Below are positions 13,407-29,418 of a stretch of 48,265 nt of DNA, piece after piece. The translations under genes were made by a program, and so were the position numbers. Origin of the DNA: Chitinispirillum alkaliphilum (GTDB lineage Bacteria > Fibrobacterota > Chitinivibrionia > Chitinivibrionales > Chitinispirillaceae); contig LDWW01000028.1 of the NCBI GenBank assembly GCA_001045525.1, forward strand, positions 1 to 48,265, read 5' to 3'. Position 1 is the stretch's first letter. The number at the start of each line of letters is the position of its first letter. Below the pieces are notes generated by a model that was not told the origin of the DNA, made no database searches, and saw nothing but the letters and a program-made list of their open reading frames with translations.

Positions 13407-14276
13407 ATGGTTGAGAGAGATGAATCAGCTGTGAGAAGATCGGGTGATATCTGGTATAAAAGGATTTCCTGGTCTGCGATATTTGCGGGCGTATTTGTAG
13501 CGATAGTTATTCAGTTTACCCTAACGGTTCTGGGGGTCGCAATCGGCCTGGCTGCAATCGATCCATTCGGAGAAACGGATCCCGGTGGATTGACAATCGG
13601 GGCAGCTATCTGGTTTGTAATTACAGGTATAATTTCTCTTTTCTGCGGAGGCTGGGTAACGGGTCGTCTTTCAGGAGATGTAGTTAAACTTGACAGGGCT
13701 CTTCATGGTCTTGTGGTATGGTCACTTGCAGTTCTTATCTCGTTTTACCTGGCGGTAACCACCGCGAGTGTGTTGGTTGGAGGGATTTTCACCATTGTTG
13801 AATCCGGGTTTGAAGCTGTGGGTGAAGCTGCGCCTGTAATGCAGGAACTTTCCCAGGAACTTGCAGGACCGGAAAGTCCAATCCAGGAAATTCAACAGGA
13901 AGCACAGCAGATTATTCAAGAACTCCAGGAAGCAGATGAAGAAGAGCGTGAGGAGATGCAGCAGGCTTTGCAGCAAATATGGGCAGCAATTAATCAACTG
14001 GTTACGGAAGGAGAAATTTCTCCCCAAAACAGAGAAAACCTGGTTAGTGCCCTTGCCGAATATACAGATATGAGTCAGAATGAGGCTGAATCAAGAGTAG
14101 ATGAGTGGGTTGAGGAAGTAGAAGAAATCAGAGTCGAGGTGATGCAGAGGGTGGAAGATGCACGAGAAGCTGCAATGCAGGCTGCCATCTGGCTGTTTGT
14201 CATCCTGATCTTAGGAGCGGCAGCGGCTGTAATCGGAGCAACTCTGGCTGGAAATCCCGACCTGAGAAGTCCATGA
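13407..14276 (+). CDS. Multi-helix membrane protein with central Glu/Gln-rich coiled coil
   Basis: 289 aa. Three to four hydrophobic segments (about residues 23-48, 62-82, 98-122) are followed by a long soluble stretch (about 135-245) dominated by Glu and Gln (EIQQEAQQIIQELQEADEE) with coiled-coil heptads, then one last membrane helix (about 255-280). Similar proteins with a short first half are often annotated PhnA-like or YrzE-like membrane proteins. No catalytic motif. SD GAGAGGAG lies 8 bp before the ATG at 13407. Probably cell-envelope stress related from its neighbours; function unknown. Confidence 0.75.
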   Translation: MVERDESAVRRSGDIWYKRISWSAIFAGVFVAIVIQFTLTVLGVAIGLAAIDPFGETDPGGLTIGAAIWFVITGIISLFCGGWVTGRLSGDVVKLDRALHGLVVWSLAVLISFYLAVTTASVLVGGIFTIVESGFEAVGEAAPVMQELSQELAGPESPIQEIQQEAQQIIQELQEADEEEREEMQQALQQIWAAINQLVTEGEISPQNRENLVSALAEYTDMSQNEAESRVDEWVEEVEEIRVEVMQRVEDAREAAMQAAIWLFVILILGAAAAVIGATLAGNPDLRSP

Positions 14277-14467: not shown

Positions 14468-15727
14468 ATGGGATTCAATCCATTTTCAGAAAAAGGGACT
14501 CCTTTGAGTAAACAAACGAAAACCTGGTCCGATCTCAATGTCAACCCCTACGATCACTACACAGTTGAGCCATACACACGCACCCGCTGCATTCTTATGA
14601 ACGGAATAGAGGTGGAGGCATCCTTTTTTTATCACAATTTTCACAGGCACACAAGCAATCAGGAAATACGCCAGGAGCTTGCCCAGATTCGCCGTATAGA
14701 ACAGCAGGAGCAGAAAATGATAAACTGGTTGATTCCTTCACACCAATCCACACTTGAGCTGACCATAGCATATGAGCAGCTCGCAGTTGACCTTACTGCA
14801 GCAATGGCAAAGTCGGAACCAGATCCTTACGTCAAGGCCGCTCTTGATTTCGGTCTGCTTGAGGATTTTGATCATCTATACAGATATGCAAATCTTCTCT
14901 CCTTAACAGATGAATTGAAGGCTGAGGCTATTGTTAAAGATCTCACAGAAATAACTCCCGGGCGCCCTACCGTACTTGAGCATGTCCATCCCATAGACAC
15001 TGTAAGGAATCACTATAACAGAGAAAAAGCGAGTGCAATCACCAAGCTTCACGTTGAGACAATCATTGCAGCCGAGCAGCAGACGATGAATTTCTACATG
15101 ACTGTAGGAAACAGGTTTGAAAACAAAATTGGTCGTTCCCTATATCAGGAAATTGCACAGATAGAGGAACAGCACGTTACCCATTACGGATCTTTATCTG
15201 ATCCAGGAGCATCCTGGCTTGAGATGGCAGTGTTACACGAATACAACGAATGTTATATGTATTGGTCATGTATGCAGTCAGAAACAAACCAAAGCGTTAA
15301 GGGGATATGGGAACAGTGCCTCGAGAACGAAATATCACACCTGCATAAAGTCTCTGATTTGATGAAAAAGTATGAAAACACAGACCCTTCGGAGAAATTC
15401 CCTTCCGCTTTTCCAGAACCATTGGTGCTGAGCCCGGCTAAGGATTATGTGCGTGAAATAATCTCATCACAGATGCATTTCACAGGAGATCAGACCAGGT
15501 TTGTTCCAATGAAACAGGCAGAAAGCAAGGAACGGTTTGAAAACTACCAGGATCAGGTAAATATGGGTCTTTATATCGCCTCACAAAAGGTTGTACAAAA
15601 TGCAATTGACGCTCACGGTCAGGATTACAGAGTAGAAACTGAAGGTGAAAATCCTGTAAGCATTGCCCAAAGAAGAAATAAGGTTCCGAACCGCAAATCT
15701 CTGACAGAGTTTTGTTTAAATCAATAA
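14468..15727 (+). CDS. Ferritin-like (rubrerythrin-type) diiron-fold protein
   Basis: 419 aa. Long helices carry ExxH/EQQ signatures of ferritin-like diiron carboxylate proteins: IRRIEQQEQKMINW around residue 75, ETIIAAEQQTMNFYMTVGN around 198, YQEIAQIEEQHVTHYG around 230, and ENEISHLHKVSDLMKKYE around 287. There is no rubredoxin Cys4 domain and no signal peptide. The length is about twice that of a rubrerythrin, which suggests two helical bundles or a fused extra domain. A role in oxidative or metal stress is inferred from fold and neighbours. SD CCGGAGGTATACTA precedes the ATG at 14468. Confidence 0.7.
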   Translation: MGFNPFSEKGTPLSKQTKTWSDLNVNPYDHYTVEPYTRTRCILMNGIEVEASFFYHNFHRHTSNQEIRQELAQIRRIEQQEQKMINWLIPSHQSTLELTIAYEQLAVDLTAAMAKSEPDPYVKAALDFGLLEDFDHLYRYANLLSLTDELKAEAIVKDLTEITPGRPTVLEHVHPIDTVRNHYNREKASAITKLHVETIIAAEQQTMNFYMTVGNRFENKIGRSLYQEIAQIEEQHVTHYGSLSDPGASWLEMAVLHEYNECYMYWSCMQSETNQSVKGIWEQCLENEISHLHKVSDLMKKYENTDPSEKFPSAFPEPLVLSPAKDYVREIISSQMHFTGDQTRFVPMKQAESKERFENYQDQVNMGLYIASQKVVQNAIDAHGQDYRVETEGENPVSIAQRRNKVPNRKSLTEFCLNQ

Positions 15728-16071: not shown

Positions 16072-17406
16072 TTATGCGAGTCGGTGAACCATATCATGCA
16101 ATACAGAGGGGAATGTAAAATTCATTCCTTTAAGATCTCTGACAGTTGCCTTTTGGGCGATAGCAAAGAGAAGAGGATTAATTACCTCATCACAGTTATA
16201 CCCAATCATATGAGCGCCAATGATTCTTCCATACTTTCCAACCAAAACTTTAAACGCGGAATGTGTCAACCCCAACCGCCTGGTGATATGCCGGTGTGAT
16301 GTGTCAATAAATTGAGTGTCAAATTCGATTCCCTTAGCCATGGCCTGCTGTTCAGTAAAACCAGCATATGCCAATTGGGGGAAAGAAAACACAACACTTG
16401 ACAGTAAATCATAACCGGGAGTTTTATCATTTCCGTGAATTATGTTATGAGCAGCTATTTGCCCTTCCATTTCAGCTACGGTTGTGAGTTGCACCCCTTC
16501 TGGATTTACATCACCGGCTATATATACGGACTGATTGCTCTCACTCTGTAAAAATTCGTTTACAACTATTCCTTTGTCATCGGTTAAAATGTCGGCGGCA
16601 TGAAGATCAAGCCCCCCGATCTGTGGGACTCTTCCTGCCCCGTGCACGATCAGATCAGTTTTTATCCTTTTCTCCCCGGCATGGACATAGAATTCATCAC
16701 CCCCCTTTTCAACAGAAACCAATGGAGCATTGGTGTAAACTTTAACACCCTCTAACTCATTTGCATCCAAAAACATTTTTACCAGATCCTGATCAAAATT
16801 GCCCAAAACCTTATCACGTGCTTCAATAATCACCACTTCAGCTCCGGCTTGTGCCGCCACGTGTGCAAGTTCAAAGGAAATATATCCACCACCGATAAAC
16901 AATAATCTTTTTGGCAAGGCAGTGAGCTCAAAGTACTCATCGCTTGTAATTATATTCTCAGCCCCGGGGATATTGAGTTTTGCAGGAGTGGATCCGGTGG
17001 CAATGAGGATATGGTCAGCAGACACTTCCTCTTTTTCACCGATTACCAGAGTGTTTTTTCCTGAGAAGCGACAGTGTCCGTGGAATTTTTCAGCTCCGAT
17101 TTTATCTCCCAGACTTTCTGCATAAACAGGTGTAGTCTGAGTCATTTTCCTTTTAAATTGTATGAGCTCAGACCAGTTTATGTTTATGTTTCCTTCAATA
17201 CCCTTGTTTTTCATATGATTGATTCTGGTAATCAATTCAGAAGCTCCGGCCAGAAGCCTTTTGGGATTACATCCGCGCAATGCACAGGTACCTCCGAATT
17301 GCAGCTCATCGGCAATGCCGACTTTCAACCCATTTTTTCTGGCCTGATGTGCAGCGGCAAATCCGGCAGAACCTGTTCCAATAACAAAGAGATCGAAATG
17401 TTTCAT
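16072..17406 (-). CDS. FAD-dependent pyridine nucleotide-disulfide oxidoreductase
   Basis: 444 aa. GTGSAGFAAAHQA (10-22) binds FAD; the redox pair is in GGTCALRGCNPKR (Cys41 and Cys46, CxxxxC). A second Rossmann motif for NAD(P)H is LLFIGGGYISFELA, and HGAGRVPQ and VYIAGDV close the FAD site. Overall it resembles glutathione/mercuric reductase or lipoamide dehydrogenase. Odd: the C-terminal His-Pro-Thr-x-x-Glu motif that supplies the active-site base in those enzymes is absent; the end reads FPSVLHDMVHRLA. Substrate unknown. SD AAGGTGGAAAT before the ATG at 17406. It is the last gene of the long minus-strand run and lies 136 bp after the histidine kinase. Confidence 0.88.
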   Translation of the reverse strand: MKHFDLFVIGTGSAGFAAAHQARKNGLKVGIADELQFGGTCALRGCNPKRLLAGASELITRINHMKNKGIEGNININWSELIQFKRKMTQTTPVYAESLGDKIGAEKFHGHCRFSGKNTLVIGEKEEVSADHILIATGSTPAKLNIPGAENIITSDEYFELTALPKRLLFIGGGYISFELAHVAAQAGAEVVIIEARDKVLGNFDQDLVKMFLDANELEGVKVYTNAPLVSVEKGGDEFYVHAGEKRIKTDLIVHGAGRVPQIGGLDLHAADILTDDKGIVVNEFLQSESNQSVYIAGDVNPEGVQLTTVAEMEGQIAAHNIIHGNDKTPGYDLLSSVVFSFPQLAYAGFTEQQAMAKGIEFDTQFIDTSHRHITRRLGLTHSAFKVLVGKYGRIIGAHMIGYNCDEVINPLLFAIAQKATVRDLKGMNFTFPSVLHDMVHRLA

Positions 17407-17542
17407 ATTTCCACCTTACATTTTAAACGGTTGAAGTGTTACGGGGCAGAGGTATTGAAAACAAAGTTTTGTGCCACTTGAAACAGAAAACACCCGATGT
17501 AAACCAGATGGTAAAATCTGCTTACTGCGAAATTGAGCAGAT

Positions 17543-18721
17543 TCATTCCTCTTCAAAGGTGAAATAAAATGATGTCCCTTTTCCCACCTGAGATTCAGCC
17601 CATATCTCTCCCCCATGCCTTTTAATTACCCGCTGCACAATAGCCAGTCCAGCACCAGTCCCCGGAAATTCCTGATCTGAGTGCAAACGCCTGAAAGGGG
17701 CAAACAGTTTCTCCATATGTTTCATATCAAATCCAGCCCCATTGTCACTAACCAGAAATATTCTTCTACCTTCCCGGACCAACGAAGTGAATTTTATTTG
17801 GGAAACCTCTCTTTTAGACGTAAACTTCCAGGCGTTCCCCAACAGATTACCCAATACCACTTTGGCAAGGGTAACATCTGCATATGCATACAAATCTTCA
17901 TCTATTGCAACATGAACATTTCTGTCATGATCACCCTGAGCTAATTGTTCGACAATTTCTCTCGCCAAATCAGAAAGGTTAACATGCTGTTTAATAAGAT
18001 CTTTACGGGTAATTTTTGAGAGTTCAAGCATATCATCAATCAGCTCCTTCATCCTTTGAGCGCTCTGCGATATTCTAATCAGGTACTCTTTTGCCTCAGG
18101 CTCCAGCTCCTGGTTGTCTTCCACCAAAATTGTTGCAAAGCCATGTATGGCCTGCAGTGGTGTTTTCAAGTCGTGTGAAACTGAATAGGAAAACGATTCC
18201 AGATTGTCATTTACTTCGGCAAGATCTCTCATGCGCTGTTTGAGAGCCTGCTCAGTTTCCTTGCGCACAGATATATCGGTGATGAGGGAGAGTACAAGCA
18301 TTTCGTTTTTTATATTTACAAAACTCAGACTTATTTCAACCGGAAACTCACTTCCATTCCTGCGCCTGGCATACAGATCCATCCCTATTCCCATCGGTCT
18401 GACCTTTGGGTCTTTGAAATATCCCGCCATTTGTTTTGTGTGAGTTTTGTTAAACCGCGCAGGGACAAGCAGATCGTGTGGTTTACCGATTATCTCAGAT
18501 GCAGTATAGCCAAACATCCGTTCTGCTGCAGCATTAAAGAGGAGAATATTTCTGTTTCCGTCGATTACTACCACTCCCTGAGCAAGAGATTGCAAAAGTC
18601 TCTGCATTGTAACATTGCCACCAAAGAGGCCTTCAAGCAGCTCTTTTTGTTTTCTCTCACACTCAAGCTTCTGTTGGGAACCATTTTCACCAGAACATTT
18701 GTTCGCCTTATCCCTTTGCAT
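17543..18721 (-). CDS. PAS-domain sensor histidine kinase
   Basis: 392 aa, no membrane segment, so a cytoplasmic sensor. PAS domain at about residues 38-155 (AQGVVVIDGNRNILLFNAAAERMFGYT). HisKA with H-box SVSHDLKTPLQ (phosphoaccepting His183). HATPase_c at about 275-392 with NLLGNAWKFT (N box), DNGAGFD (G1) and GTGAGLAIVQRVIKRHGG (G2). No response regulator adjacent. SD AAAGGAAAC before the ATG at 18721. It begins 55 bp after the GH15 gene on the same strand, so it may be cotranscribed with the ASRT operon. Signal unknown. Confidence 0.92.
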   Translation of the reverse strand: MQRDKANKCSGENGSQQKLECERKQKELLEGLFGGNVTMQRLLQSLAQGVVVIDGNRNILLFNAAAERMFGYTASEIIGKPHDLLVPARFNKTHTKQMAGYFKDPKVRPMGIGMDLYARRRNGSEFPVEISLSFVNIKNEMLVLSLITDISVRKETEQALKQRMRDLAEVNDNLESFSYSVSHDLKTPLQAIHGFATILVEDNQELEPEAKEYLIRISQSAQRMKELIDDMLELSKITRKDLIKQHVNLSDLAREIVEQLAQGDHDRNVHVAIDEDLYAYADVTLAKVVLGNLLGNAWKFTSKREVSQIKFTSLVREGRRIFLVSDNGAGFDMKHMEKLFAPFRRLHSDQEFPGTGAGLAIVQRVIKRHGGEIWAESQVGKGTSFYFTFEEE

Positions 18722-18776
18722 GGAGTTTCCTTTTAGAACAGGTGGATCTGCAATACCTCATCAGATATAAAAAACT

Positions 18777-20660
18777 TCACTCATCCCTTCCCATTCTGCG
18801 TCGATGCTCGGGAGTACCAATTAAGATATCCGGGACACGACGCCCCTGGGCATATGTGATATTCAAAACGCTGTTGATCAAACCGACATGCGAAAAAGCC
18901 TGTGGGTAATTTCCCAAAAACTCCCCCGTAACCGGATTGAACTCTTCGGGGAAAAGTCCAAGATGGTTTGAATGAGCCAATAATTTATCAAAGATTTCCC
19001 TCGCTTCATCAAGCCTGTTTGACAGAGCAAGAGCATCAACAAGCCAAAAAGTACACAGACCGAATGCACCCTCCTCACCGGGAAGCCCGTCATCCATTAG
19101 ATAGCGATGCACAAAACAGTTATGCATTAGCTTTTCCATGGTTCTGTCTATTGTACTCTGCACACGAGGGTCATTGAACGGGAGAAACTCCATCATCGGG
19201 ATACGAAGATTGGCAGCATCCAGATCCTCACAGTCATAACACATTGTAAATGCTTCTATTTTTTTGTTGTAACCATGCTCAAGCACATCCTTGTGGATTT
19301 TCTGCATAGTTGAGTACCACAGTTGAGGTGCGCCAGGCATCCCGAATTCTTTGCTCAGATGTATTGCACGATCAAGAGCCACCCAACACATAATCTTTGA
19401 ATATGTAAAATGACGGGGTGCTCCGCGCATCTCCCAGATCCCATGATCGGGCTTGTCCCAAATCTCAACAACCGTATCTGCAATTCCACTGAGAAACTGT
19501 AAGATACGTGGTTCTGGGATATGACCACGCCTTGCAAGCTCATATCCCATATTGATCAACTCCCCGAACACCTCCAACTGAAGCTGAGAAGCCGCATCAT
19601 TGCCAATGTTCACCGGGCGGGATTGACGATAGCCTGAAAGATGGGGTAATTCATACTCATCCAGATTCGCCTCACCGTGAAGTCCATACATAATCTGCAA
19701 CTTTCCCGCGTGATCGGCAGATACCCGTTCCATCCAATCAAGCAGCTCAAAAGCCTCCCTCACATGCCCAACCGCAATAAGCGCCTGTGCGGTCTGGGAT
19801 GCATCCCTGATCCAGGCATAACGGTAATCCCAGTTACGCACCCCTCCGATTTCTTCAGGCAGAGAAGTGGTAGGAGCAGCCGCTATCGCTCCGGTATCTG
19901 AGTGAGAGAGCAGTTTCAATACTAATTGGGATCTGATAACCCCGGGTAGCCACTTCTGCTCACACTTTAGGTTCTCTATAACATCCTGCCTGTGAGCCCA
20001 CTCTTTCCAGATTTCAGTGGTTCTTTGCAGCTTGAAGTTTGAGTTTTCTATGCTGCAGACGGTATTCACTGAGTTCCATCTGCAGACAACCGCACAACGC
20101 TGTCCTTTTCGCATGGGGATTTTTGCGCGCAAAACCGGCCCATAACCGTCATCGGTTATTTCTCCGTTATCGACACCTGATAGGGAGATAATTTCCCCAC
20201 CTCCTTCGGCGGCAAATCCACCCTCAATCGGATATAAATTCATCTCGGCACGGGCATAATCAAACCGGGGTGACCACTCAAGGTTAACTTCTGTTTCTCC
20301 CTCTTTACACTCAACAATCCTGTGGATTTCAGGCAACGCACGAGTCTGGGCTTTTCCGTGAATGTAACCCTCAATGGGCATAAAATCGGTAACAGCGATT
20401 AAACTGTTTTGCCCCTCTATTTCAGTTGTAAGGACATTGGTATCGGGAAGGTAGTATTGCTTTCCATGCCCCGCATTAACAGGGCGTATTGAGAACCTGC
20501 CCCCTTTTTTTCTGTCCAGGAGTGCACCGAAAACGCTTGCCCGGTCGAGATGAGGAAAACAGCACCAGTCAATAGAACCTCCCCGGCAGACCAGGGCTGC
20601 ACTGCGGCAATTCCCTATAAGCCCATAGGAGGAGATTGGCTTGAAGTCTGAGAGCTCCAT
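18777..20660 (-). CDS. Glycoside hydrolase family 15 (glucoamylase/trehalase-like)
   Basis: 627 aa from the ATG at 20660 (MELSDFKPISSYGLIGN). This start is chosen because GGGGGTAAGTAT precedes it and the family N-terminus matches; the open frame extends a further 58 codons upstream into the LLM gene. The N-terminal beta domain (SIDWCCFPHLDRASVFGALLD) is followed by the alpha/alpha barrel with GGVRNWDYRYAWIRDAS (272-288) and GYRQSRPVNIGNDAASQLQ. The family hydrolyses terminal alpha-1,4 or trehalose glucosidic bonds with inversion. No signal peptide, so cytoplasmic. Only 4 bp separate it from the LLM gene stop, which argues for one transcript. Confidence 0.92.
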   Translation of the reverse strand: MELSDFKPISSYGLIGNCRSAALVCRGGSIDWCCFPHLDRASVFGALLDRKKGGRFSIRPVNAGHGKQYYLPDTNVLTTEIEGQNSLIAVTDFMPIEGYIHGKAQTRALPEIHRIVECKEGETEVNLEWSPRFDYARAEMNLYPIEGGFAAEGGGEIISLSGVDNGEITDDGYGPVLRAKIPMRKGQRCAVVCRWNSVNTVCSIENSNFKLQRTTEIWKEWAHRQDVIENLKCEQKWLPGVIRSQLVLKLLSHSDTGAIAAAPTTSLPEEIGGVRNWDYRYAWIRDASQTAQALIAVGHVREAFELLDWMERVSADHAGKLQIMYGLHGEANLDEYELPHLSGYRQSRPVNIGNDAASQLQLEVFGELINMGYELARRGHIPEPRILQFLSGIADTVVEIWDKPDHGIWEMRGAPRHFTYSKIMCWVALDRAIHLSKEFGMPGAPQLWYSTMQKIHKDVLEHGYNKKIEAFTMCYDCEDLDAANLRIPMMEFLPFNDPRVQSTIDRTMEKLMHNCFVHRYLMDDGLPGEEGAFGLCTFWLVDALALSNRLDEAREIFDKLLAHSNHLGLFPEEFNPVTGEFLGNYPQAFSHVGLINSVLNITYAQGRRVPDILIGTPEHRRRMGRDE

Positions 20661-20664
20661 ATAC

Positions 20665-21642
20665 TTACCCCCTGAAAATGTTACGCAGCTGAGGAACAAC
20701 AGTTTCACCAAACACCTCGATGAAGGGTTCCTGTTCTTTGTTGACATTGTGTAAATAAAGCCGTTCAAATCCCAGCTCCACATCTTTTCCCAGAAGATCA
20801 ACGAACATATGGGGAGAATCGGAGACCCGAACATGCTCCCTCACCTGTTCGGGTGTGACAAACGAACCCGCAGCATCGAGATCCCAGGGGAATCTAAGAT
20901 CTGTAAGCACAGGGCTGTCAAATATAACCGTTCTCCACTGATCGTAAGCGCCCTGAAGAGCGTTTTGATCGGTATTGCTGTATGAAAGCTGTACTTTAAG
21001 AAACATCGGTTTCCCCTCGCCTCCCCCTCTTCTGAAAGCATCGACAACCTCTCTTAGCTGATCGTGGGGTTTTGAGATTGTAATGAGTGCATCGGCCCAC
21101 CCCCCAACCCACTCGGCAGTCTGTGGTGTAATGGCAGCACCTACGAGAAGGGGAGGAGTTTTGGGTTTAACATATAGACGGGCATGTTCAACGTTTACAT
21201 GTCCGTAATGAGTTACCTCTTCCCCCGCCCATAATCTTCTTATCACATCGACCGATTCCCTCAGTCTCTCATTACGCATCCATTTCGGGGGCCATCTTTC
21301 ACCTGTAACAGATTCATTTATTAATTGTCCGCTTCCTGCAGCCAGCCAGAAGCGACCGGGGAACATTTCTGCAAGAGTGGCAGCAGCCTGAGCGATAATG
21401 GCAGGATGATAGCGCTGCCCGGGAGCGCATACCACACCATAATCCAGCCCTGTTTTCTGCATCGCCGCCCCAAGCCAGGCCCAGGAATACCCGCTGTTGC
21501 CCTGTCTTTCACTCCAGGGTACAATATGATCTGAACTCAGAGCAGTGTCAAAGCCAGCCTGCTGGGCCATTTGGGCTAAAGAGAGCAGGTGACTGGGACT
21601 GAACTGTTCATGAGAGGCATGATAGCCGATCTTTATCTCCAT
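20665..21642 (-). CDS. LLM-class flavin oxidoreductase (non-F420 flavinoid type)
   Basis: 325 aa, luciferase-like monooxygenase TIM barrel: IGYHASHEQFSPSHLLSLA at the N-terminus, LSSDHIVPWSERQG, FPGRFWLAAGSGQLINE and ALITISKPHDQL. It fits the TIGR03885-type group, predicted to use FMN rather than F420; I have not run the model. Substrate unknown. SD AAGGAGAGATAA before the ATG at 21642. It overlaps the end of the DUF2721 gene by 10 bp and is followed after 4 bp by the GH15 gene, so a shared sugar-related or stress substrate is possible. Confidence 0.85.
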   Translation of the reverse strand: MEIKIGYHASHEQFSPSHLLSLAQMAQQAGFDTALSSDHIVPWSERQGNSGYSWAWLGAAMQKTGLDYGVVCAPGQRYHPAIIAQAAATLAEMFPGRFWLAAGSGQLINESVTGERWPPKWMRNERLRESVDVIRRLWAGEEVTHYGHVNVEHARLYVKPKTPPLLVGAAITPQTAEWVGGWADALITISKPHDQLREVVDAFRRGGGEGKPMFLKVQLSYSNTDQNALQGAYDQWRTVIFDSPVLTDLRFPWDLDAAGSFVTPEQVREHVRVSDSPHMFVDLLGKDVELGFERLYLHNVNKEQEPFIEVFGETVVPQLRNIFRG

Positions 21643-22127
21643 TTATCTCTCCTTGATATTTGAACTACATAATCCATCTCCGCATTAACAGAGTCGAGCG
21701 CCAGTTTTGAATCAGCGATAAGCAAAACACTTGACGTAAAAAGAAGAACAGAACCAAATATTCCAAAGCCCACCGGAAGCCACACATAGTCGATACCGGT
21801 AATAGAAACAGCCCCGATTGCCACACTTGTGGCCAGAAAGGCGCTAAGCGAAAGGTAGAGCCCGGCAAGGGAGTATTGCAAAAGACGGGTTCTCTTTGTT
21901 GCTCTATGGAGCTGGTGATAGAGAAGAACAAGATATTCATCACTGAAAATTTCACAGCTTTTCTTGCAGATTGTATCCTGATACTGAGAGGTGAGTTTTC
22001 TTGTTCTGTCCATTAACCGCCCCAGGCGTGCTGAGGTGGAAATGGTTAGTGAACCACAGGCAGCAATAAGCACTGCGGGTGTAATCATATCGGATAAGAC
22101 ATTTAGAGTTGCAGAGAGATCTGTCAT
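21633..22127 (-). CDS. DUF2721 family membrane protein
   Basis: 164 aa. Membrane segments lie at about residues 15-33, 83-105, 112-133 and 137-148. The N-terminal LSDMITPAVLIAACGSLTISTSARLGRLMDR is the hallmark of DUF2721. Short basic linkers and RDKWR at the end suggest the cytoplasmic side. Function unknown in any organism that I know. It overlaps the LLM gene by 10 bp and starts 13 bp after the second ASRT-family gene, so it is firmly in the operon. Confidence 0.85.
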   Translation of the reverse strand: MTDLSATLNVLSDMITPAVLIAACGSLTISTSARLGRLMDRTRKLTSQYQDTICKKSCEIFSDEYLVLLYHQLHRATKRTRLLQYSLAGLYLSLSAFLATSVAIGAVSITGIDYVWLPVGFGIFGSVLLFTSSVLLIADSKLALDSVNAEMDYVVQISRRDKWR

Positions 22128-22140
22128 TCATTATCCGCTT

Positions 22141-22512
22141 TTATTGGCTAAAGGGTACACAGCCTGTTATCGCTCTTTTAATTGTGGTGGAATCGAGACG
22201 GGAGAATTGAACCACAAGAGGCATCTCACACCTCACGACACACCCATAATCTTTACCAAGTGGAACAGGTACAGGGTCGATAAGGTCATTTAGCCTTAAG
22301 ACTCTGAGCCGTTTGGCACCCACCATAAGCGGGCGCATTTTCACCCCCCTTCCACCGGAATAGTAAACCTCAATCTCACAATGGACATCTTTGTCGTTTG
22401 TATTTAAAAGCTTAAGTTCATCCCTGCTGGTAAACTCAGGTTCATGCCCAGAAGAGTTTAGTGGAATATGCCCTCCGGAAATTGCCCATACCATTGCACC
22501 TATGCTTCTCAA
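22141..22512 (-). CDS. ASRT-family protein (sensory rhodopsin transducer family), copy 2
   Basis: 123 aa from TTG at 22512, which has AGGAGGAAA 8 bp upstream and gives an N-terminus matching the paralogue (RSIGAMVWAISGGHIP against KSIGKKIWAIADGYIP). The frame is open upstream to ATG 22554 or TTG 22563, through a GA dinucleotide run, so the start is uncertain. The family (PF07100) is a small beta-sandwich related to the Anabaena sensory rhodopsin transducer. Conserved stretches are LNTNDKDVHCEIEVYYS, LNDLIDP, PLGKDYGCVVRCEMPLVVQFSRLDS. No rhodopsin gene is near. It probably binds a small molecule or regulates neighbours. Confidence 0.85.
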   Translation of the reverse strand: MRSIGAMVWAISGGHIPLNSSGHEPEFTSRDELKLLNTNDKDVHCEIEVYYSGGRGVKMRPLMVGAKRLRVLRLNDLIDPVPVPLGKDYGCVVRCEMPLVVQFSRLDSTTIKRAITGCVPFSQ

Positions 22513-22523
22513 CTGAATTTCCT

Positions 22524-22540
22524 CCTCTCTCTCTCTCTCT
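22524..22540. repeat. CT/GA dinucleotide microsatellite
   Basis: An uninterrupted CT run of 17 bases (GA on the coding strand) directly abuts the AGGAGG Shine-Dalgarno of the second ASRT gene and lies inside the reading frame if an upstream start is used. Slippage could vary expression. Confidence 0.85.
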
Positions 22541-22559
22541 GACCAAAACAACATCCAGT

Positions 22560-23750
22560 TCAAACGCCCAGTAACTCCTTAAGATAGGGAGAGAGAAAGA
22601 CCCCATGGGGGTCGAATCTGTTGCGGATTTGCAGAAAACTTTCCCATTCCGGGTATAGTTCTCTTAATTTTCCCGCTTTCATGCTGTGTTTTTTGCCCCA
22701 GTGGGGCCTTCCGCCATATTCCTGCAAAATCGGCTCCATATCCCCGAAATACTCCTCATAGGGAAGCTGGGCGTTGTGATGAATGGTGATAGTGACAGTA
22801 TCCCGCCCATATGCCATACTGAGCATGGTGTCATCAGTGGCTATGGTTCGGTAAAGAACTCTCCAGCACACATCTTTGCGGTGCCTTTGCTTTACCCTCT
22901 TGCGTACTGCCCTGAAAGCCTCAGGTCCAACCTCCAGAGGAAATGCATACTCCATTTCGTGATACTTCAGTGTGCGTTCATGGGGTATAATCTCAGAAGC
23001 CCATCCGGTTTTCTCCTTTTTCAGAACGGAATCGGCTGTCCCCGACGGTACACCATCCTCCTGAAGTGTAAGGGTGCGTATCTGGGCAAGGTCACTGCGT
23101 GGGTACCAGTAAAAATCAAAACTGCGGTTTTTGTCAATCAGCTCATCAAGAGATTCAAGACAGCTTTCAATATGAGTGCACCAATACCTGCGCACAACCC
23201 TGAAAGCCTCAGCAAGATTGAGCGTGCACTCCGTTATAACCCCCAGAGTTCCAAGCGAAACCCGCAGAGCCCTTATACTATCTTTATCAGCGGTGAAGTC
23301 AATGTCTGTAATGTCCCCCTCCCCTGTCACCATGCGTACGGAGGAGAGCTGATAGGAGAGATTTTTCAGAAATTTTCCTGAACCATGAGTCCCGGTTCCA
23401 AATGCTCCGGCCAGAGCCTGATATGCAACATCACCATAGTTTTCCATGGACAAGCCGTTTTGAAGCAGAAGTTTCCCGGAGTCATTCAGTGTGGTGCCAG
23501 CCCCCAAAGTTGCACGATTCTCTTTACGGTCCACTTTTGCTTTTAGGGAATACCTGTCAAGAGAAAGGAGAATCCCCTCAGTCTCAACCAGGGGTGAAGA
23601 AGAGTGGCCCTGGCCAACAGGACGAAGGTTTTTCTTTTCTTTTAAGGCTTTGGATACAATGTTGGCAACTTCATTTTCATTTTCCGGAAACTCAATGCTC
23701 TGTGGAGAGAAACGTATTGTACCCGACCAGTTTCTCCAGAATTTGTCCAC
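22560..23750 (-). CDS. FAD-binding aldonolactone oxidase-like protein
   Basis: 396 aa, VAO/PCMH flavoprotein. The N-terminal FAD domain has RPVGQGHSSSPL, where the His of GxGHS is the usual site of covalent FAD in this class, and GAFGTGTHGSG. The C-terminal half matches D-arabinono-lactone/L-gulonolactone oxidases, with GGRPHWGKKHSM and RNRFDPHGVFLSPYL near the end. The family oxidises sugar lactones or alditols and passes electrons to O2 or another acceptor. No signal peptide. It lies between the two ASRT genes: 30 bp after copy 1, and its stop overlaps the possible upstream TTG start of copy 2. Confidence 0.88.
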   Translation of the reverse strand: MDKFWRNWSGTIRFSPQSIEFPENENEVANIVSKALKEKKNLRPVGQGHSSSPLVETEGILLSLDRYSLKAKVDRKENRATLGAGTTLNDSGKLLLQNGLSMENYGDVAYQALAGAFGTGTHGSGKFLKNLSYQLSSVRMVTGEGDITDIDFTADKDSIRALRVSLGTLGVITECTLNLAEAFRVVRRYWCTHIESCLESLDELIDKNRSFDFYWYPRSDLAQIRTLTLQEDGVPSGTADSVLKKEKTGWASEIIPHERTLKYHEMEYAFPLEVGPEAFRAVRKRVKQRHRKDVCWRVLYRTIATDDTMLSMAYGRDTVTITIHHNAQLPYEEYFGDMEPILQEYGGRPHWGKKHSMKAGKLRELYPEWESFLQIRNRFDPHGVFLSPYLKELLGV

Positions 23751-23780
23751 TTTTTATCCCTCTTCCTGTTATGGATAGTT

Positions 23781-24164
23781 CTATTCTGAAGAAGAGAATG
23801 CGATTGTGCTTATAAGTGCGTTTTCTGCCTGACGAGAATCAAGGCGTGTATGCTGTACCACTACCGGTATATCGGACCTGATCACACAGGCATAATCTGT
23901 ACCCAAAGGGATTTTCTCCGGATCATCCAGATCATTGAAACGCTGATGAATCACCCGTCTGGGCGCAATGGTGAGAATATAGGGACCCGCCGGCTCCCGG
24001 TCGGAATAGTAGACTGTCAACTCCACCCGTGCCTCTTCATCTGAACTGTTTAAGATACTTACAGTCTCATGGCTTAACATTTCAGGCTGCGGCCCATGAC
24101 TCTCAGGGGGTATGTAGCCATCGGCAATAGCCCAGATCTTCTTACCTATGCTTTTGTTTGACAT
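23781..24164 (-). CDS. ASRT-family protein (sensory rhodopsin transducer family), copy 1
   Basis: 127 aa, full-length PF07100 protein. The N-terminus KSIGKKIWAIADGYIPPESHG is followed by PEMLSHETVSILNSSD, LTVYYSDREPAG, RRVIHQRFNDLDDPEKIPLGTDY and VVQHTRLDSRQ. These are the core conserved blocks of the family. It starts the operon: SD GAAAGGA lies 7 bp before the ATG at 24164, with a 329-bp upstream gap. In Anabaena a homologue couples to a sensory rhodopsin, but family members usually occur without one. A small-molecule (possibly carbohydrate) binding role has been proposed. Confidence 0.9.
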   Translation of the reverse strand: MSNKSIGKKIWAIADGYIPPESHGPQPEMLSHETVSILNSSDEEARVELTVYYSDREPAGPYILTIAPRRVIHQRFNDLDDPEKIPLGTDYACVIRSDIPVVVQHTRLDSRQAENALISTIAFSSSE

Positions 24165-24493
24165 AGATTGTCCTTTCAGAAGATTTTTTATTTCCTAAGC
24201 AGATATCAAGAAGAGCAAAAAGCAAATAAGATGCCTGGCAGATTTGAAGAACATGCCCGCAATTGTAAGTACGGGTCACAAACTGAAAAGCAGTGCGAGA
24301 CTAGTGCAGATGTTTAAGTTTTGACAGATTAAAACAGTACATTCTTTTTACTTACACAGAGCTGTGTGTATTTGTCAGATTAGCAATAAGAGCAAACGAG
24401 GCTAGTGAGAGGGGAAGAGGGGTGGTAAGTGCCGGGGGCAACACCAGGTTAAATCTCCCGGTTCACCCCCTTGCACACACCACAGGACCAGTT
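24165..24493. promoter_or_regulatory. Intergenic upstream region of the ASRT operon
   Basis: It contains no gene. It holds TTGACAGATT (24321-24330) and the near-copy TTGTCAGATT (24372-24381). Between them is the inverted repeat ACACAG-AG-CTGTGT (24354-24367). These may be operator elements for the downstream minus-strand operon, about 160-215 bp upstream of its start, or for nothing. The part next to 24493 is the 3' end of the hydrogenase operon; a weak GGGGG/CCCCC hairpin near 24430-24465 could terminate it. Confidence 0.35.
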
Positions 24494-25969
24494 TTATTTT
24501 GAGACAGTTTCAGACTTTTCTGTTGGTTGGGAAGGCTGACTCTCCTGGCTCAAACGAAGTACTCTCTTACGGCCGGATGAACTGTTTTCCGGTGTACATG
24601 GCCCGTTGATACATCCTCCTTCACAAGCCATAACCTCCAGAAAATTTCCTTTAATACCTCTTATAGAATACATTTTGAGAAGCTTAAAATTCTGTCTGTT
24701 AAAACCATCAAGAAGCTCCCCCTTAAGGTCTGAAGAATCTTTTAGCTCCGAAGCAACAGCTTCGGTCACCGCACCGCTGAGCGGGAATTTTCTTCCAGCG
24801 CATTCAGCCGAGTCAAAAAGCTGATCCGTTTCCAGCTGTGCAACATCGATAGCGGCGGCTGCAAACAAACAGGCAATCTCTTCACTAGTAATAACATAAT
24901 CCACGATCGGATCGTTTTCTGCTTCTTTGCGTTTTGCGACACAAGGTCCTATAAACACCACTTTACTTTCAGGGTGTTTCTCCTTAATCATTTCTGCGGT
25001 GTAATGCATTGGTGAAGGAGTTTTTGAAACCCGTTCCTTTAGTTGTGGAAAATGTTTCTGCACAGCCTGCACATAGGAGGGACAGCATGAGCTTGTCAGA
25101 AACCCGTTCCCTTCATCTATACACTCATTAAGCTCTTCAGCTTCATGAATCGCGGTTTTTTTAGCTCCATGTGCCACTTCCACAACAGATGAGAATCCCA
25201 GTTTTTTCAGGGCAGATACAACCTGCCCGTACTCAGCCACAAACTGAGCAGCTGATGCGGGAGCGATCATGGCGACTACATTTTTTTTCGCCTTTATCAC
25301 CCCAAGGACATCAATTATCTGAGATCGCTCCATGATGGCACCGAAGGGACACTGCTGCATGCATTTCCCGCAATATATACATTTACCAAAATCGATCTGC
25401 GCCTTTCCCACTCCATCCTTTTCTATCGCCCCTGCCGGGCATGCCTCTTCACAGGGGATGGGGACTCTAATGATCGCATGATACGGACATGCTTTAAGGC
25501 AGATCCCGCAGTTCACACACTTCGAACTGTCAATCAAAGCCTGTCCCTTATCTCCCATTGTAATTGCTTTTTTCGGACAGTTAAGAATACAGGGTCTTGC
25601 CATACATCCCCTGCATGCATTTGTTACAAAATACTTGTTCTGAACACATGCACTGCATGCCTCATCCAGCAGAAGAAGCGGCTCTCCGGTATTTGGGGCA
25701 TCTCTTTTGATGCTTTTCAGAGAATAGCTTCCCAGACTTTCAAGCTCATCTGTTTCATCTTCAATACCAAAGCCAAGAGCAGCCATGACCCTGTACCTGA
25801 TCAGGGCCCTGTCCTTGTAGATACAGCACCTGTAGGAGCTTCCCCCCTTAGGTCTCATCTCAAGAGGGATTCTGTCAGCCCTTTCGACCAGTTTATCTTC
25901 CATGAACAGCCGTGCGATTCTCACAAGCAAATTTCTTCTGGTTCTTGTAGAGTTATTATTATACTGCAT
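24494..25969 (-). CDS. [FeFe]-hydrogenase, group B-like monomeric enzyme
   Basis: 491 aa. N-terminal iron-sulfur domains contain Cys119/122/127/131, 151/154/157/161, 173/177 and 197/200/203/207, so several [4Fe-4S] clusters. H-cluster motifs are SSCCPSY (Cys295 and 296), GPCVAKRKE (Cys343) and MACEGGCINGP (Cys449 and 453). Both Cys of the first motif are kept, including the proton-relay Cys, so it should be catalytic. Ferredoxin is a plausible partner; it evolves or oxidises H2. No NADH-binding subunits or HydEFG maturases are in this window. It is the last gene of the rex operon, 23 bp after a 2Fe-2S protein gene. Confidence 0.88.
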   Translation of the reverse strand: MQYNNNSTRTRRNLLVRIARLFMEDKLVERADRIPLEMRPKGGSSYRCCIYKDRALIRYRVMAALGFGIEDETDELESLGSYSLKSIKRDAPNTGEPLLLLDEACSACVQNKYFVTNACRGCMARPCILNCPKKAITMGDKGQALIDSSKCVNCGICLKACPYHAIIRVPIPCEEACPAGAIEKDGVGKAQIDFGKCIYCGKCMQQCPFGAIMERSQIIDVLGVIKAKKNVVAMIAPASAAQFVAEYGQVVSALKKLGFSSVVEVAHGAKKTAIHEAEELNECIDEGNGFLTSSCCPSYVQAVQKHFPQLKERVSKTPSPMHYTAEMIKEKHPESKVVFIGPCVAKRKEAENDPIVDYVITSEEIACLFAAAAIDVAQLETDQLFDSAECAGRKFPLSGAVTEAVASELKDSSDLKGELLDGFNRQNFKLLKMYSIRGIKGNFLEVMACEGGCINGPCTPENSSSGRKRVLRLSQESQPSQPTEKSETVSK

Positions 25970-25992
25970 CTCTTCTCCGGTCTTATTCCGAG

Positions 25993-26247
25993 TTAAAATC
26001 TGGTTAGTTCTTCAAGCTTTTCCAATATTTTGAACAGTGTTGCTTCACTCAGGAGTTCTTCTCCCACAAGTACAAACGGAGCTTTGCCGTAATTTTCATC
26101 TCTGCAATACCCCAGACATCTGTGCCAGTGTATTTCCACCTTGTCCCTGAATGTGGAAGGCAGATCATTTTCGAGATTCTGCAAATATGAGGAACCCATC
26201 AAATGACAAGTTGTTCCAAGACACACACTTATAACTATCTTCTCCAT
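25993..26247 (-). CDS. Thioredoxin-like [2Fe-2S] ferredoxin (NuoE-like C-terminal domain)
   Basis: 84 aa. Begins KIVISVCLGTTCHLMGS; two further Cys lie in HRCLGYCRDE, giving the four ligands C-x4-C ... C-x3-C of thioredoxin-fold [2Fe-2S] proteins. It is the small electron-transfer subunit seen beside [FeFe]-hydrogenases. It is 14 bp after the phosphatase gene and 23 bp before the hydrogenase. Its electron partner is inferred. Confidence 0.85.
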   Translation of the reverse strand: MEKIVISVCLGTTCHLMGSSYLQNLENDLPSTFRDKVEIHWHRCLGYCRDENYGKAPFVLVGEELLSEATLFKILEKLEELTRF

Positions 26248-26261
26248 TTTCTACACCTTTG

Positions 26262-27437
26262 TCAATAGTAACGGATTATTGTTTCCTTCAGATATTTTTT
26301 CTCCAAAAGAGATGCTATCTTCTTTATGACATTTCTTCTGATATCAAGCTCTATAGGAAGAGCCGGGTCCTGATGTGACTGATTTACCCGGGTTCCGACA
26401 AAAAATTCTATAATGTCACAGTCCAAAAGAAGATCCCTGAGCATGGTGGCACCATTTTTCCCCCCATCCCTCACATTTTTCTCAAGCAGTCCTGCAAGAT
26501 TACTGAGAGTTATACATCCTTCTGTGATAAGCTCAACCCCCTTCATATAGGATACCGCCGGCACCACCGGATCCATACACGAGAGATCCATAGTTGCTTC
26601 CCGCCCCAGTTCTCTTTCAACGATGTTTGCAGTTGTACCACCGCAGATGACACATTTTCCGGAAACATCCCTGATAAGAGATGCGTATTCAGAATCCCTT
26701 GACGGATCAAATGGGGGACCGGTCAATACGCGCATTCTTCTTGGGTTTCTCATATAAATAACGGTACAGGATATATCATCCCCCGCCCTGCTCCCATCAT
26801 TTCGCAGGGCTACCTGACACAACCTTCTGGCAAGTTCTTCAGCAGAAATCCAGGGGTCTTTCTTTATGTACTCCCGCACAAGTGATACCACCTCAGGAGT
26901 GCCAAAACCCATGGGCCATCTTTTTGAACCCATTCCCGATTGAGTTACCCCATCGGACATCATAATCAGTCTGTCCCCGATTTGGGCGGAAAACCCCGCA
27001 TACTCAAGAGAGCGGTTCCTCCACCTGGGCATGTGAAGCTCTGATTGGAGCCTCTCCATGGGGTGTTGTGATCTGAAATAGAGAAAAGGCGGATTACCAT
27101 GCCCGATTATACGCATCTCCCCTGAAAGACTTATGTCCGCAATGCTGAATGTTGAATAACTTATCTTTCTTGACGGACACAGCGGCAAGGCATCCATGAT
27201 CAGCTCAGCTGCTCTCTTTATTTTTAAATCAGAAGTTATATACTCAATACCCATGGAGGCAGTGAAACTTGCCAAAACATTGGCCTCTACACCGCTGCCC
27301 AACCCGTCACAAAGAATCGACACCACCCTGCCCTGTTCCAGTTTTTTTGTGAGAAGGACATCACCGGAAGTTGAGTTTCCATGCTTGGAGTGGTTAAAGG
27401 AACCTATTTCTATGAACAATTCTTTATTCTGTATCAT
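26262..27437 (-). CDS. SpoIIE-family (PP2C-type) protein phosphatase with Cys-containing C-terminal domain
   Basis: 391 aa. The N-terminal 230 residues form the SpoIIE/PP2C fold: SILCDGLGSGVEAN (metal-binding Asp), MMSDGVTQSG and AGDDISCTVI. The remaining residues form a second domain starting with a GKCVICGGTTANI stretch, a CxxC-like pair that could sense metal or redox. In hydrogenase sensor operons this phosphatase is a likely output that acts on an unknown phosphoprotein, e.g. an anti-sigma antagonist. Start ATG at 27437 lies 7 bp after the HydS stop. It neighbours HydS and a ferredoxin, so signal from the sensor is inferred. Confidence 0.85.
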   Translation of the reverse strand: MIQNKELFIEIGSFNHSKHGNSTSGDVLLTKKLEQGRVVSILCDGLGSGVEANVLASFTASMGIEYITSDLKIKRAAELIMDALPLCPSRKISYSTFSIADISLSGEMRIIGHGNPPFLYFRSQHPMERLQSELHMPRWRNRSLEYAGFSAQIGDRLIMMSDGVTQSGMGSKRWPMGFGTPEVVSLVREYIKKDPWISAEELARRLCQVALRNDGSRAGDDISCTVIYMRNPRRMRVLTGPPFDPSRDSEYASLIRDVSGKCVICGGTTANIVERELGREATMDLSCMDPVVPAVSYMKGVELITEGCITLSNLAGLLEKNVRDGGKNGATMLRDLLLDCDIIEFFVGTRVNQSHQDPALPIELDIRRNVIKKIASLLEKKYLKETIIRYY

Positions 27438-27444
27438 TGATACC

Positions 27445-29136
27445 TCAGGAAAAACTCTCTATCAAAGAATTGAGAATTTTTTCAGACTGAGCAGCATTCT
27501 TCCCCATCAAAAAGGCTATCTCCTGAGCGGTATTGGAAGTATTGCTTATTACCTCCTGAGCTTTCTCGATTATCTGCTCTCTTCTCATCTCAGTTTTTGT
27601 GGCATCCCGCACCAATGCCCCTGCCACCTGATTTGGTTCCACTGTAAATATTGTAATGGCATAGGTTTTATCTTCAGTTTTTACAAAGTGCTGGGTTATA
27701 TCGTTACCGGTCTTTAACACATTTGAAAACAGATCATGAAACGGCAATACCCTGCGAAGATCGGCATTGACCAATCCGGGACGAACCTGAAAAATGGAAC
27801 GGATATCATCCCCCAGCAACTGGGCGAAATTGTCATTACAATCAATAATTTTAAGTTCCTTGTCAACTATTACCACACCATAGGGAATGGTTTTAAGAAG
27901 CGCATTTGCCTGTTTTTGCGCCAGTACCCTCATATATGATACACACATGCACTGTTCCGCTTTTTTCTCAATCATAGCCAGCGCAAACTCCCTGCAGCTG
28001 ACATAGCCACAGGAGCCGCAATTAAGCTCATCTTCTGATTTGACTTTACCTATTGTTGCAAGAGCTGCAGCAATGCGGTCCTGTGAAACTGGGTTGTTCT
28101 GTTTGCTTTCAGCCCTGAATGTGTGCATGATCTGGTTTACATATTCACCCGAAAGAATTTGTGATTTATCTTGCGCGTAGTCTATTACTTCGAGTCTGGA
28201 ATCAATTGAAGCCCTGCATGTGGCCTTTGGCCCACCAATACACCCATTTTCACATGCAAGAAGCTCCACAAACATTCTGCGGTGAAAATGTTTGGTATCA
28301 AAAGTTTCAAGAGTGTTCCTGATATTATCCACACCAGAAAGCGTAAGGTACACAGCATCCCTCTTCTCCACTCTGTTTCTGACCGTTGAGATCATCCCTC
28401 CTTCAACGGGATAAAGTGCCCCGCGCCCGGATTCACGGGGAACAAATCCCAGCTTGTCTTCAGGCTCAATCTCTGAAGGATCAATTCCCTCGTTTTCAAA
28501 CCAGCGATGCAAATCCTCGAAAGTGATGGCGACATCGAGTAGATTCCCAAACTGATCCGCCTCCTGTTTTTTGGCAATACAGGGCCCGACAAAAACAATA
28601 CCGATCTCCTCTCCGTAAACATGCCTGAGCATACAACAGTGAGCGAGTAATGGAGAGAAAAACGGTGAGATATATTCTGCAAAATCAGGCAAGTGTTTCA
28701 AAACAAGTTCAACCGCTGAAGGACATGCAGAAGAGAGTACTAGACCTTTTCTTTCTGTCAGAAACTCAGCAACAGCAAAAGACACCTCCTCGGCTCCAAG
28801 TGCGGTCTCACTGACACCTGTAAACCCCAAACTCTTTACAGCTGTAGCGAGCTGATTTACAGAACAGTTTTTAAACTCCCCCTTGAATGAGGGGGCAAGA
28901 GAGAGAAACGTTTTCTTTCTCTTTACAAGATGAATAGAACGCCTCAGATCATCTCTGACTCTTTTTGCACCAACAGGACAGGCATCAACACAATGTCCAC
29001 ACAAAATACACGCTTCGGGAATCACTTCAGCCTCACCATTGACAACACGGATAGCCTTTACCGGGCACTCCCTTATACACTTATAACAGTCGCGGCAACG
29101 GGTTTCTTCAGAATATATAGGATTGAGGTACTGCAC
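27445..29136 (-). CDS. hydS: Sensory [FeFe]-hydrogenase with PAS domain (HydS-type, group C)
   Basis: 563 aa. Two N-terminal [4Fe-4S] clusters (Cys14/17/20/24 and 43/46/49/53). H-cluster motifs are SSACPSA (Ala137-Cys138), VGPCIAKKQEA (Cys186) and LACENGCIGGP (Cys295, Cys299). An additional Cys-rich Fe-S module, CGSCGYVSC, is at 373-381 with Cys396 and Cys398, followed by a PAS domain at about 415-520 and a helical tail. The Ala in the first motif replaces the proton-relay Cys, as in the Thermotoga HydS sensor; low activity and H2 sensing are expected. Start GTG 29136; SD AGGGGAATAAAG. It is adjacent to the phosphatase that may transmit the signal. Confidence 0.88.
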   Translation of the reverse strand: MQYLNPIYSEETRCRDCYKCIRECPVKAIRVVNGEAEVIPEACILCGHCVDACPVGAKRVRDDLRRSIHLVKRKKTFLSLAPSFKGEFKNCSVNQLATAVKSLGFTGVSETALGAEEVSFAVAEFLTERKGLVLSSACPSAVELVLKHLPDFAEYISPFFSPLLAHCCMLRHVYGEEIGIVFVGPCIAKKQEADQFGNLLDVAITFEDLHRWFENEGIDPSEIEPEDKLGFVPRESGRGALYPVEGGMISTVRNRVEKRDAVYLTLSGVDNIRNTLETFDTKHFHRRMFVELLACENGCIGGPKATCRASIDSRLEVIDYAQDKSQILSGEYVNQIMHTFRAESKQNNPVSQDRIAAALATIGKVKSEDELNCGSCGYVSCREFALAMIEKKAEQCMCVSYMRVLAQKQANALLKTIPYGVVIVDKELKIIDCNDNFAQLLGDDIRSIFQVRPGLVNADLRRVLPFHDLFSNVLKTGNDITQHFVKTEDKTYAITIFTVEPNQVAGALVRDATKTEMRREQIIEKAQEVISNTSNTAQEIAFLMGKNAAQSEKILNSLIESFS

Positions 29137-29142
29137 AGGACT

Positions 29143-29418
29143 TTATTCCCCTCTTTTACTTTCGCTTAGAACGGCGTAGTTTAATATGTCAATTATACTT
29201 CCGCGGTCAATATTGGAGTACAGCTCTCCGTTCACCCAAATATTTGGCCCATTCATACACTGTCCTCCACAACGGCAACCTTTTATTTCTATCTCTGTGT
29301 CAACACTGTTTTCCTGAAGATAATCCCTTATCACTTCATAATTCTTTCCATTTCCTCTTGAATAACAGGAGCTGCCCATACAAATTGTTATTCCATGCTT
29401 ATTCTCTTTACACTCCAT
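29143..29418 (-). CDS. Thioredoxin-like [2Fe-2S] ferredoxin
   Basis: 91 aa. Ligand Cys are in ITICMGSSCYSRG and CRCGGQCMNGP (C-x4-C and C-x3-C pairs plus additional Cys). It resembles the NuoE/HoxE-like subunit domain. Start ATG 29418 directly abuts the rex stop codon, with SD AAAAGGGGA inside the rex end, so it is translationally coupled to rex. It ends 6 bp before the HydS start. Probably transfers electrons for the sensory hydrogenase, by position. Confidence 0.85.
   Translation of the reverse strand: MECKENKHGITICMGSSCYSRGNGKNYEVIRDYLQENSVDTEIEIKGCRCGGQCMNGPNIWVNGELYSNIDRGSIIDILNYAVLSESKRGE

Follow-up and report, generated by a model that had tools for sequence, protein, structure and literature searches.

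The sensory rhodopsin transducer of the cyanobacterium Anabaena (ASRT; structure 2II7), a small protein associated with light sensing, has been reported to bind and bend promoter DNA through R109, Q110 and N113, with an affinity that is weak and of low specificity, random sequence being looped better than the promoter itself (PMC8660804). A broader role was proposed in 2009 by De Souza et al., who from gene context regarded ASRT proteins as sugar sensors in sugar operons, including a case with an amylase neighbour in Sinorhizobium (PMC2739507). Here we analysed a 48,265-nucleotide contig of Chitinispirillum alkaliphilum (LDWW01000028.1; this whole stretch is hereafter called the window) in which two PF07100 genes, ASRT1 and ASRT2, flank the gene of a flavoprotein of the aldonolactone oxidase type (ALO), and found that ASRT2 and its ALO belong to two matched clades that travel together in bacteria and archaea.

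Compared with the Anabaena system, window ASRT1 is about 65% identical to the transducer and retains its DNA-contact motif, and ASRT2 has the same predicted fold, but no rhodopsin gene adjoins them and they are encoded with an oxidase and, in the case of ASRT1, with a second, diverged ASRT. A preliminary description of the window had called the locus rhodopsin-free; the host genome indeed gave no PF01036 match, although the positive controls of that search were also unmatched, so that the absence is not proven. The window proteins also resemble the ASRAH solo proteins of De Souza et al., which likewise consist of one PF07100 domain, are intracellular and have their genes placed among those of sugar enzymes; however, the flavoenzyme named in that text is a glycolate-oxidase-related FAD oxidoreductase, whereas here an ALO is flanked by two unlike ASRTs. 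The text of that study mentions no separate ASRT2 clade bound to a single ALO clade; its data include Sinorhizobium and Natrialba magadii, so the cassette may already be drawn in its figure or supplement (PMC2739507). A literature search found no paper combining ASRT with a lactone oxidase. The idea of ASRT sugar sensing in sugar operons was already published; the dedicated ASRT2-ALO partnership appears to be the new element.

The closest described enzymes are alditol oxidase (AldO; 2VFR, 8OT8) and L-galactono-1,4-lactone dehydrogenase (GalDH; 8QMY) of the VAO family. The window ALO shares their fold, the AldO-type histidine, the catalytic Arg and Lys and an HWGK motif, and has Gly at the oxygen-gate position of GalDH Ala113; it differs from them by a Glu to Leu change at a substrate contact and by a clade-specific Trp296 and Arg297.

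Results

The three core genes lie on the minus strand: a canonical ASRT1 of 127 residues (23781-24164), the ALO-type FAD flavoprotein with a GTG start (22560-23750), and a divergent ASRT paralogue of 123 residues with a TTG start, ASRT2 (22141-22512). Consistently with the preliminary description, in which two PF07100 genes flanked an aldonolactone-oxidase-like flavoprotein, PF07100 scored 180 bits for ASRT1 and 116 bits for ASRT2 (cut-off 25), and TIGR01679 scored 358 bits for the flavoprotein (cut-off 292), which also matched PF01565 (FAD_binding_4) and PF04030 (ALO). The eight-stranded beta-sandwich of 2II7 and 1NC7, taken as the criterion of the ASRT fold, was recognised in ASRT1 by sequence (match to 2II7, E 3e-53) and in ASRT2, which is about 40% identical to ASRT1, by its predicted model (pLDDT 77.5), which matched 2II7 (E 1.6e-9, TMq 0.77) and also 1NC7.

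Position relative to ALO and phylogeny, two properties independent of each other, sorted the ASRTs in the same way. When 72 ASRTs were placed in a carefully built tree, those encoded directly behind an ALO, 23 in number, formed one clade (support 97/97; 99% of bootstrap trees), and the ASRTs upstream of ALO were spread among solo ASRTs. In a 152-sequence tree, 26 behind-ALO copies (about 24 distinct ones, since two repeat an organism already present under another record) again formed one clade (SH-aLRT 99), with none of the 126 other sequences inside. The second ASRTs of a Pontibacter and of a Myxococcales genome, picked from the PF07100 table alone as a small prospective test and both counted among the 26, each lay directly behind an ALO or an ALO remnant; the Pontibacter ALO (L173 7655-9400) is broken, with only its last third readable, and the ASRT2 behind it stays open. 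By these trees ASRT1 is one of the many general ASRTs and ASRT2 falls in a separate clade, making them old, asymmetric paralogues for which the earlier term "ASRT pair" is misleading. A recent tandem duplication of the two genes was ruled out, the ASRT2 copies of all lineages forming one clade.

The enzymes showed the same partition. The ASRT2-linked ALOs formed one clade against seven unlinked relatives (support 100/99), with 44-58% identity to the window ALO for linked and at most 37% for unlinked proteins. Among 292 Halobacteria, the least biased of our samples, a search with one linked ALO gave 13 strong full-length matches (at least 62% identity), in exactly the 13 genomes that carry ASRT2, the next full-length haloarchaeal match reaching only 43%; because of the kinship among these genomes, the counts do not represent independent events.

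To survey the spread of the cassette, 84,980 species genomes were scanned with ASRT1, and the best 80 of the 315 relatives obtained were analysed; as these were ranked by similarity to ASRT1, ASRT2 is under-sampled. Counting each organism once, with the cassette intact at the ASRT level, ASRT1-ALO-ASRT2 was present in 19 separate genomes or plasmids, namely the window, three Salinimicrobium, one deltaproteobacterium, two Sinorhizobium species and 12 haloarchaea. Conservation of the neighbourhood in distant genomes, the test that the preliminary description had itself named, was thus observed, and since the cluster recurs across phyla its gene association is not due to chance. The deltaproteobacterial run, LLM-GH15-ASRT-ALO-ASRT, holds the same set as the window, and the pSymB-type replicons of S. 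meliloti and S. medicae carry a thiamine pyrophosphate (TPP) enzyme followed by ASRT-ALO-ASRT-GH13-LLM. Plasmid records also add Natrononativus to the cassette-bearing replicons and contain ALO-ASRT2 alone in Deinococcus deserti and Natrialba magadii. PF07100 was found in 31 of the 292 Halobacteria and the full cassette in 12; in a thirteenth (G213) the parts are split, with ALO-ASRT2 and ASRT1 on different replicons, and in a fourteenth (G453) decayed fragments of ALO and ASRT2 adjoin each other.

Closer to the host, PF07100 occurred in only three of 168 sampled genomes of the phylum. A genome of the same family but another genus (G004) encodes an ALO 58% identical to that of the window and an ASRT2 behind an internally deleted ASRT1 (L007 11143-11320), whose ends are intact and about 74 middle codons gone, through decay or an assembly error; the rest of the run is absent. 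A genome of the host genus (G005) has a single ASRT1 at a contig end. Such patchy spread, together with several plasmid copies and decaying copies, would be expected of a functionally unconnected gene set that hitch-hikes by horizontal transfer. However, the genes have stayed adjacent and in the same order in two domains of life although their proteins are down to 44-58% identity, and in one haloarchaeon even the decayed ALO and ASRT are still neighbours, so that we give this explanation almost no credence. As a separate observation, conjugative plasmids of Klebsiella pneumoniae carry a canonical ASRT (L091 7998-8390), with genes for a sugar MFS transporter, an SDR and a mandelate-racemase-type enzyme next to it.

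By sequence and by fold (model pLDDT 69, moderate confidence), the solved structures closest to the window ALO are the alditol oxidases and GalDH. His49, which we take to be the FAD-linking histidine of the AldO type, is present in all 23 linked ALOs, as are Arg301 and Lys353, which align with GalDH Arg388 and Lys456; unlinked related ALOs (L166-L172) retain the same FAD-His and catalytic residues. In GalDH, a role in stabilising the substrate alkoxide has been proposed for Arg388 and Lys456 (PMC11099136). At the column of the substrate-contacting GalDH Glu386 and its AldO equivalent, all 23 linked ALOs have Leu (Leu299), versus Glu in all seven unlinked ones, and Trp296 and Arg297 beside it are specific to the linked clade. 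Since the Arg-Lys pair is invariant but Glu has become Leu299, the chemistry has probably been kept and the substrate changed. Gly106 stands at the oxygen-gate column marked by the GalDH A113G variant; Gly, an oxidase-type residue that predicts reaction with oxygen, occupies this column in all ALOs compared, linked and unlinked. The analysis thereby points to a set of proteins annotated as ALO whose active site is altered in this way and for which the label D-arabinono-1,4-lactone oxidase is probably wrong.

The two ASRTs differ at the functional positions proposed for the family. The proposed ligand signature, SHEshChhN, contains a His and a Cys whose conservation is described as near, not absolute (PMC2739507). 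ASRT1 reads SHETVSILN, with the His retained and Cys replaced by Ser; ASRT2 reads SRDELKLLN, in which both are gone (His to Arg, Cys to Lys). Loss of these residues in many ASRT2 copies would fit a protein that senses nothing and acts instead as an assembly or structural factor of ALO, in folding, in flavinylation or as an oligomer scaffold, and the strict ALO-ASRT2 linkage and the translation of ASRT2 right after the enzyme would suit such a factor equally. Against this, the His persists in 17 and the Cys in 15 of the 26 ASRT2 copies, and the ALOs without ASRT, with the same FAD-His and catalytic residues, evidently manage without it; we consider a purely structural ASRT2 rather unlikely.

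The residues corresponding to the Anabaena DNA contacts separate the paralogues as well. ASRT1 retains the motif SRQAEN, and the matching R, Q and N are kept in nearly all ASRT1 and solo copies, as would be expected if ASRTs were DNA-binding operon regulators of the kind reported for Anabaena and the enzymes merely the regulated genes. All three residues are changed in the window ASRT2, however, and the ASRT2 clade is relaxed at these positions; the weak and unspecific binding reported for the Anabaena protein itself (PMC8660804) further argues against this explanation, which appears improbable for the locus as a whole, although ASRT1 may still have such a role.

The core is followed by five further minus-strand genes, of which two recur elsewhere. 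The LLM-class flavin oxidoreductase (20665-21642; TIGR03885, 492 bits, cut-off 399) belongs to a sister family of the F420-dependent glucose-6-phosphate dehydrogenases and is close to FGD1. Unlike those enzymes, it is unlikely to use F420 and likely depends on FMN, since a profile search with positive controls found no CofD in the host genome (98.9% complete). LLM homologues (TIGR03885, at least 50% identity) lay within 10 kilobases (kb) of 19 of the 80 ASRTs, in Bacteroidota, Myxococcota, Cyanobacteriota, Gemmatimonadota and Pseudomonadota. The GH15 glycoside hydrolase with a TREH_N domain (18777-20660; GH15 profile 220 bits) had counterparts near 11 of the 80; among the 19 cassettes, LLM was nearby in 11 and GH15 in seven. 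The GH15 protein is trehalase-like, but an identity as trehalase was not adopted, its 360 bits being under half of the TreH1 cut-off of 820. Salinimicrobium and Sinorhizobium have a TreS-like GH13 in place of GH15, the S. meliloti one being most likely SMb20099, cited as treS (PMC4960864), a match that rests on gene order beside the sigma-54 regulator SMb20102. Both glycosidase types fall in trehalose-related groups, a hint as to the sugar, with neither passing an equivalog cut-off. GH15 also overlaps or abuts a solo ASRT without ALO in a Myxococcales genome (L069 10001-12268) and in Deinococcus sp. D7000 (L089 7986-10252), and solo ASRTs more often adjoin TPP enzymes, mandelate-racemase-like enzymes, GMC or gluconate dehydrogenases and SDRs. 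The carbohydrate-derived ligand suggested in the preliminary description is therefore plausible, as the recurrent partners (ALO, LLM, GH15 or TreS-like GH13, TPP enzyme, mandelate-racemase-like enzyme, GMC/gluconate dehydrogenase) are all sugar or redox enzymes. Literature searches on SMb20094-SMb20098 and on TIGR03885 found nothing relevant.

The other three genes encode a DUF2721 protein between ASRT2 and LLM (21633-22127), a PAS-HisKA-HATPase sensor kinase (17543-18721) and a pyridine-nucleotide-disulfide oxidoreductase (Pyr_redox_2/Pyr_redox_dim; DSOX; 16072-17406), so that from 24164 to 16072 the run reads ASRT1, ALO, ASRT2, DUF2721, LLM, GH15, kinase and disulfide reductase. Successive gaps are 30, 47, 13, -10, 4, 55 and 136 base pairs (bp), given starts of ASRT2 at TTG 22512 and of GH15 at ATG 20660. 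The former start, preceded by AGAGGAGG, appears best placed, the mechanical open reading frame beginning at 22563, within the 3' end of ALO; the latter, with GGGGG upstream, is the likely one, the mechanical frame (start 20834) overlapping LLM. The families, the single-strand order and the 55 and 136 bp spacings agree with the preliminary description; its maximum gap of 13 bp applies to DUF2721, LLM and GH15 and fails around ALO, where gaps are 30 and 47 bp. The common strand and short gaps, together with a consensus promoter and terminator scan of the run in which sites were no more numerous than in shuffled sequence, would be compatible with one eight-gene stress or carbohydrate-sensing operon, in which the kinase and disulfide reductase are integral and the ASRTs form a shared sensor. 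Yet a kinase homologue (at least 35% identity) was found in only two of the 80 ASRT loci, at least 5.7 kb away, and no comparable homologue of DUF2721 or the disulfide reductase in any of them. Lacking comparable homologues beside the other sampled ASRTs, these three genes fall outside the conserved module to which the preliminary description had assigned them; moreover, all that G004, from the host's family, has of the run is the ASRT1 remnant, ALO and ASRT2. The eight-gene module was accordingly discarded, and a single operon of this kind seems very improbable.

Upstream, 329 bp (24165-24493) separate ASRT1 from an [FeFe] hydrogenase gene. The adjacent region (24494-30060) encodes a Group B1 [FeFe] hydrogenase, a SpoIIE-type phosphatase, a second [FeFe] hydrogenase-like protein with a PAS domain and a Rex-like repressor, and looks like a sensory hydrogenase cluster. 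Elsewhere in the window, a 289-residue membrane protein (13407-14276) and a 419-residue protein (14468-15727) had no Pfam match.

Discussion

We propose that the core of this locus is an old, transferable ALO-ASRT2 unit in which ASRT2 would be a dedicated, sugar-ligand-responsive partner that tunes or feeds a VAO-family oxidoreductase, a proposal that we judge to be evenly poised. The unit is usually preceded by a canonical ASRT1 and often joined by a TIGR03885 LLM and a glycosidase of the trehalose/alpha-glucoside type. ALO would be a sugar (alditol or aldonolactone) oxidoreductase with a pocket changed from Glu to Leu and the catalytic Arg-Lys pair kept; the ASRT2 beta-sandwich, or a mixed ASRT1/ASRT2 tetramer, would bind it and tune or feed it according to a small sugar-derived ligand in the ASRT cleft. 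As that cleft is formed partly at the dimer interface (PMC2739507), mixing normal and changed subunits would alter the site. GH15 and LLM would supply the sugar, glucose being released and then oxidised, and ASRT1 would be a general ASRT recruited beside the unit, optional and exchangeable, perhaps in mixed tetramers. Since ASRT2 is strictly linked to one ALO clade and ASRT1 is optional, it is ASRT2 that we regard as the enzyme's partner. Family assignments, gene order, conservation, the two co-occurring clades and the residue changes were established directly; from here we infer physical contact, sugar ligand, substrate, pathway order and function.

Several observations weigh against this proposal. 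Without either proposed ligand residue, the window ASRT2 may be unable to bind the usual ligand at all. Evolutionary distances of ALO correlate with those of ASRT2 (0.94) but nearly as well with those of ASRT1 (0.91), so that shared ancestry explains most of the former correlation, and co-variation was dropped as proof of interaction. LLM is absent beside eight of the 19 cassettes, and in the family relative G004 both LLM and GH15 are missing from the locus. Finally, Gly106 predicts reaction with oxygen, but profile searches with positive controls found neither COX1 (heme-copper oxidase) nor cytochrome bd in the host genome, so oxygen may not be the usual electron acceptor of the host ALO; together with the missing CofD, this suggests that the host is probably anaerobic and F420-free.

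The role of ASRT outside Anabaena has been a question since at least 2009, and the ASRT2-ALO tie gives it a concrete handle: an ASRT subfamily that pairs one-to-one with a single clade of enzymes across six phyla and two domains of life offers a simple biochemical test of the sugar-sensor proposal, for which S. meliloti pSymB provides a tractable host in which to assay ASRT2-oxidase binding and its ligand. A stronger statement, in which ASRT2 serves a previously unrecognised VAO-type sugar oxidase of bacteria and archaea as an obligate subunit for regulation or substrate handling, is tentative, and we incline somewhat against it. If true, this oxidase would be the first enzyme to be linked to the ASRT superfamily as a partner, and the coupling to rhodopsin in Anabaena could then be seen as a metabolic sensor having been put to a new use at a late stage.

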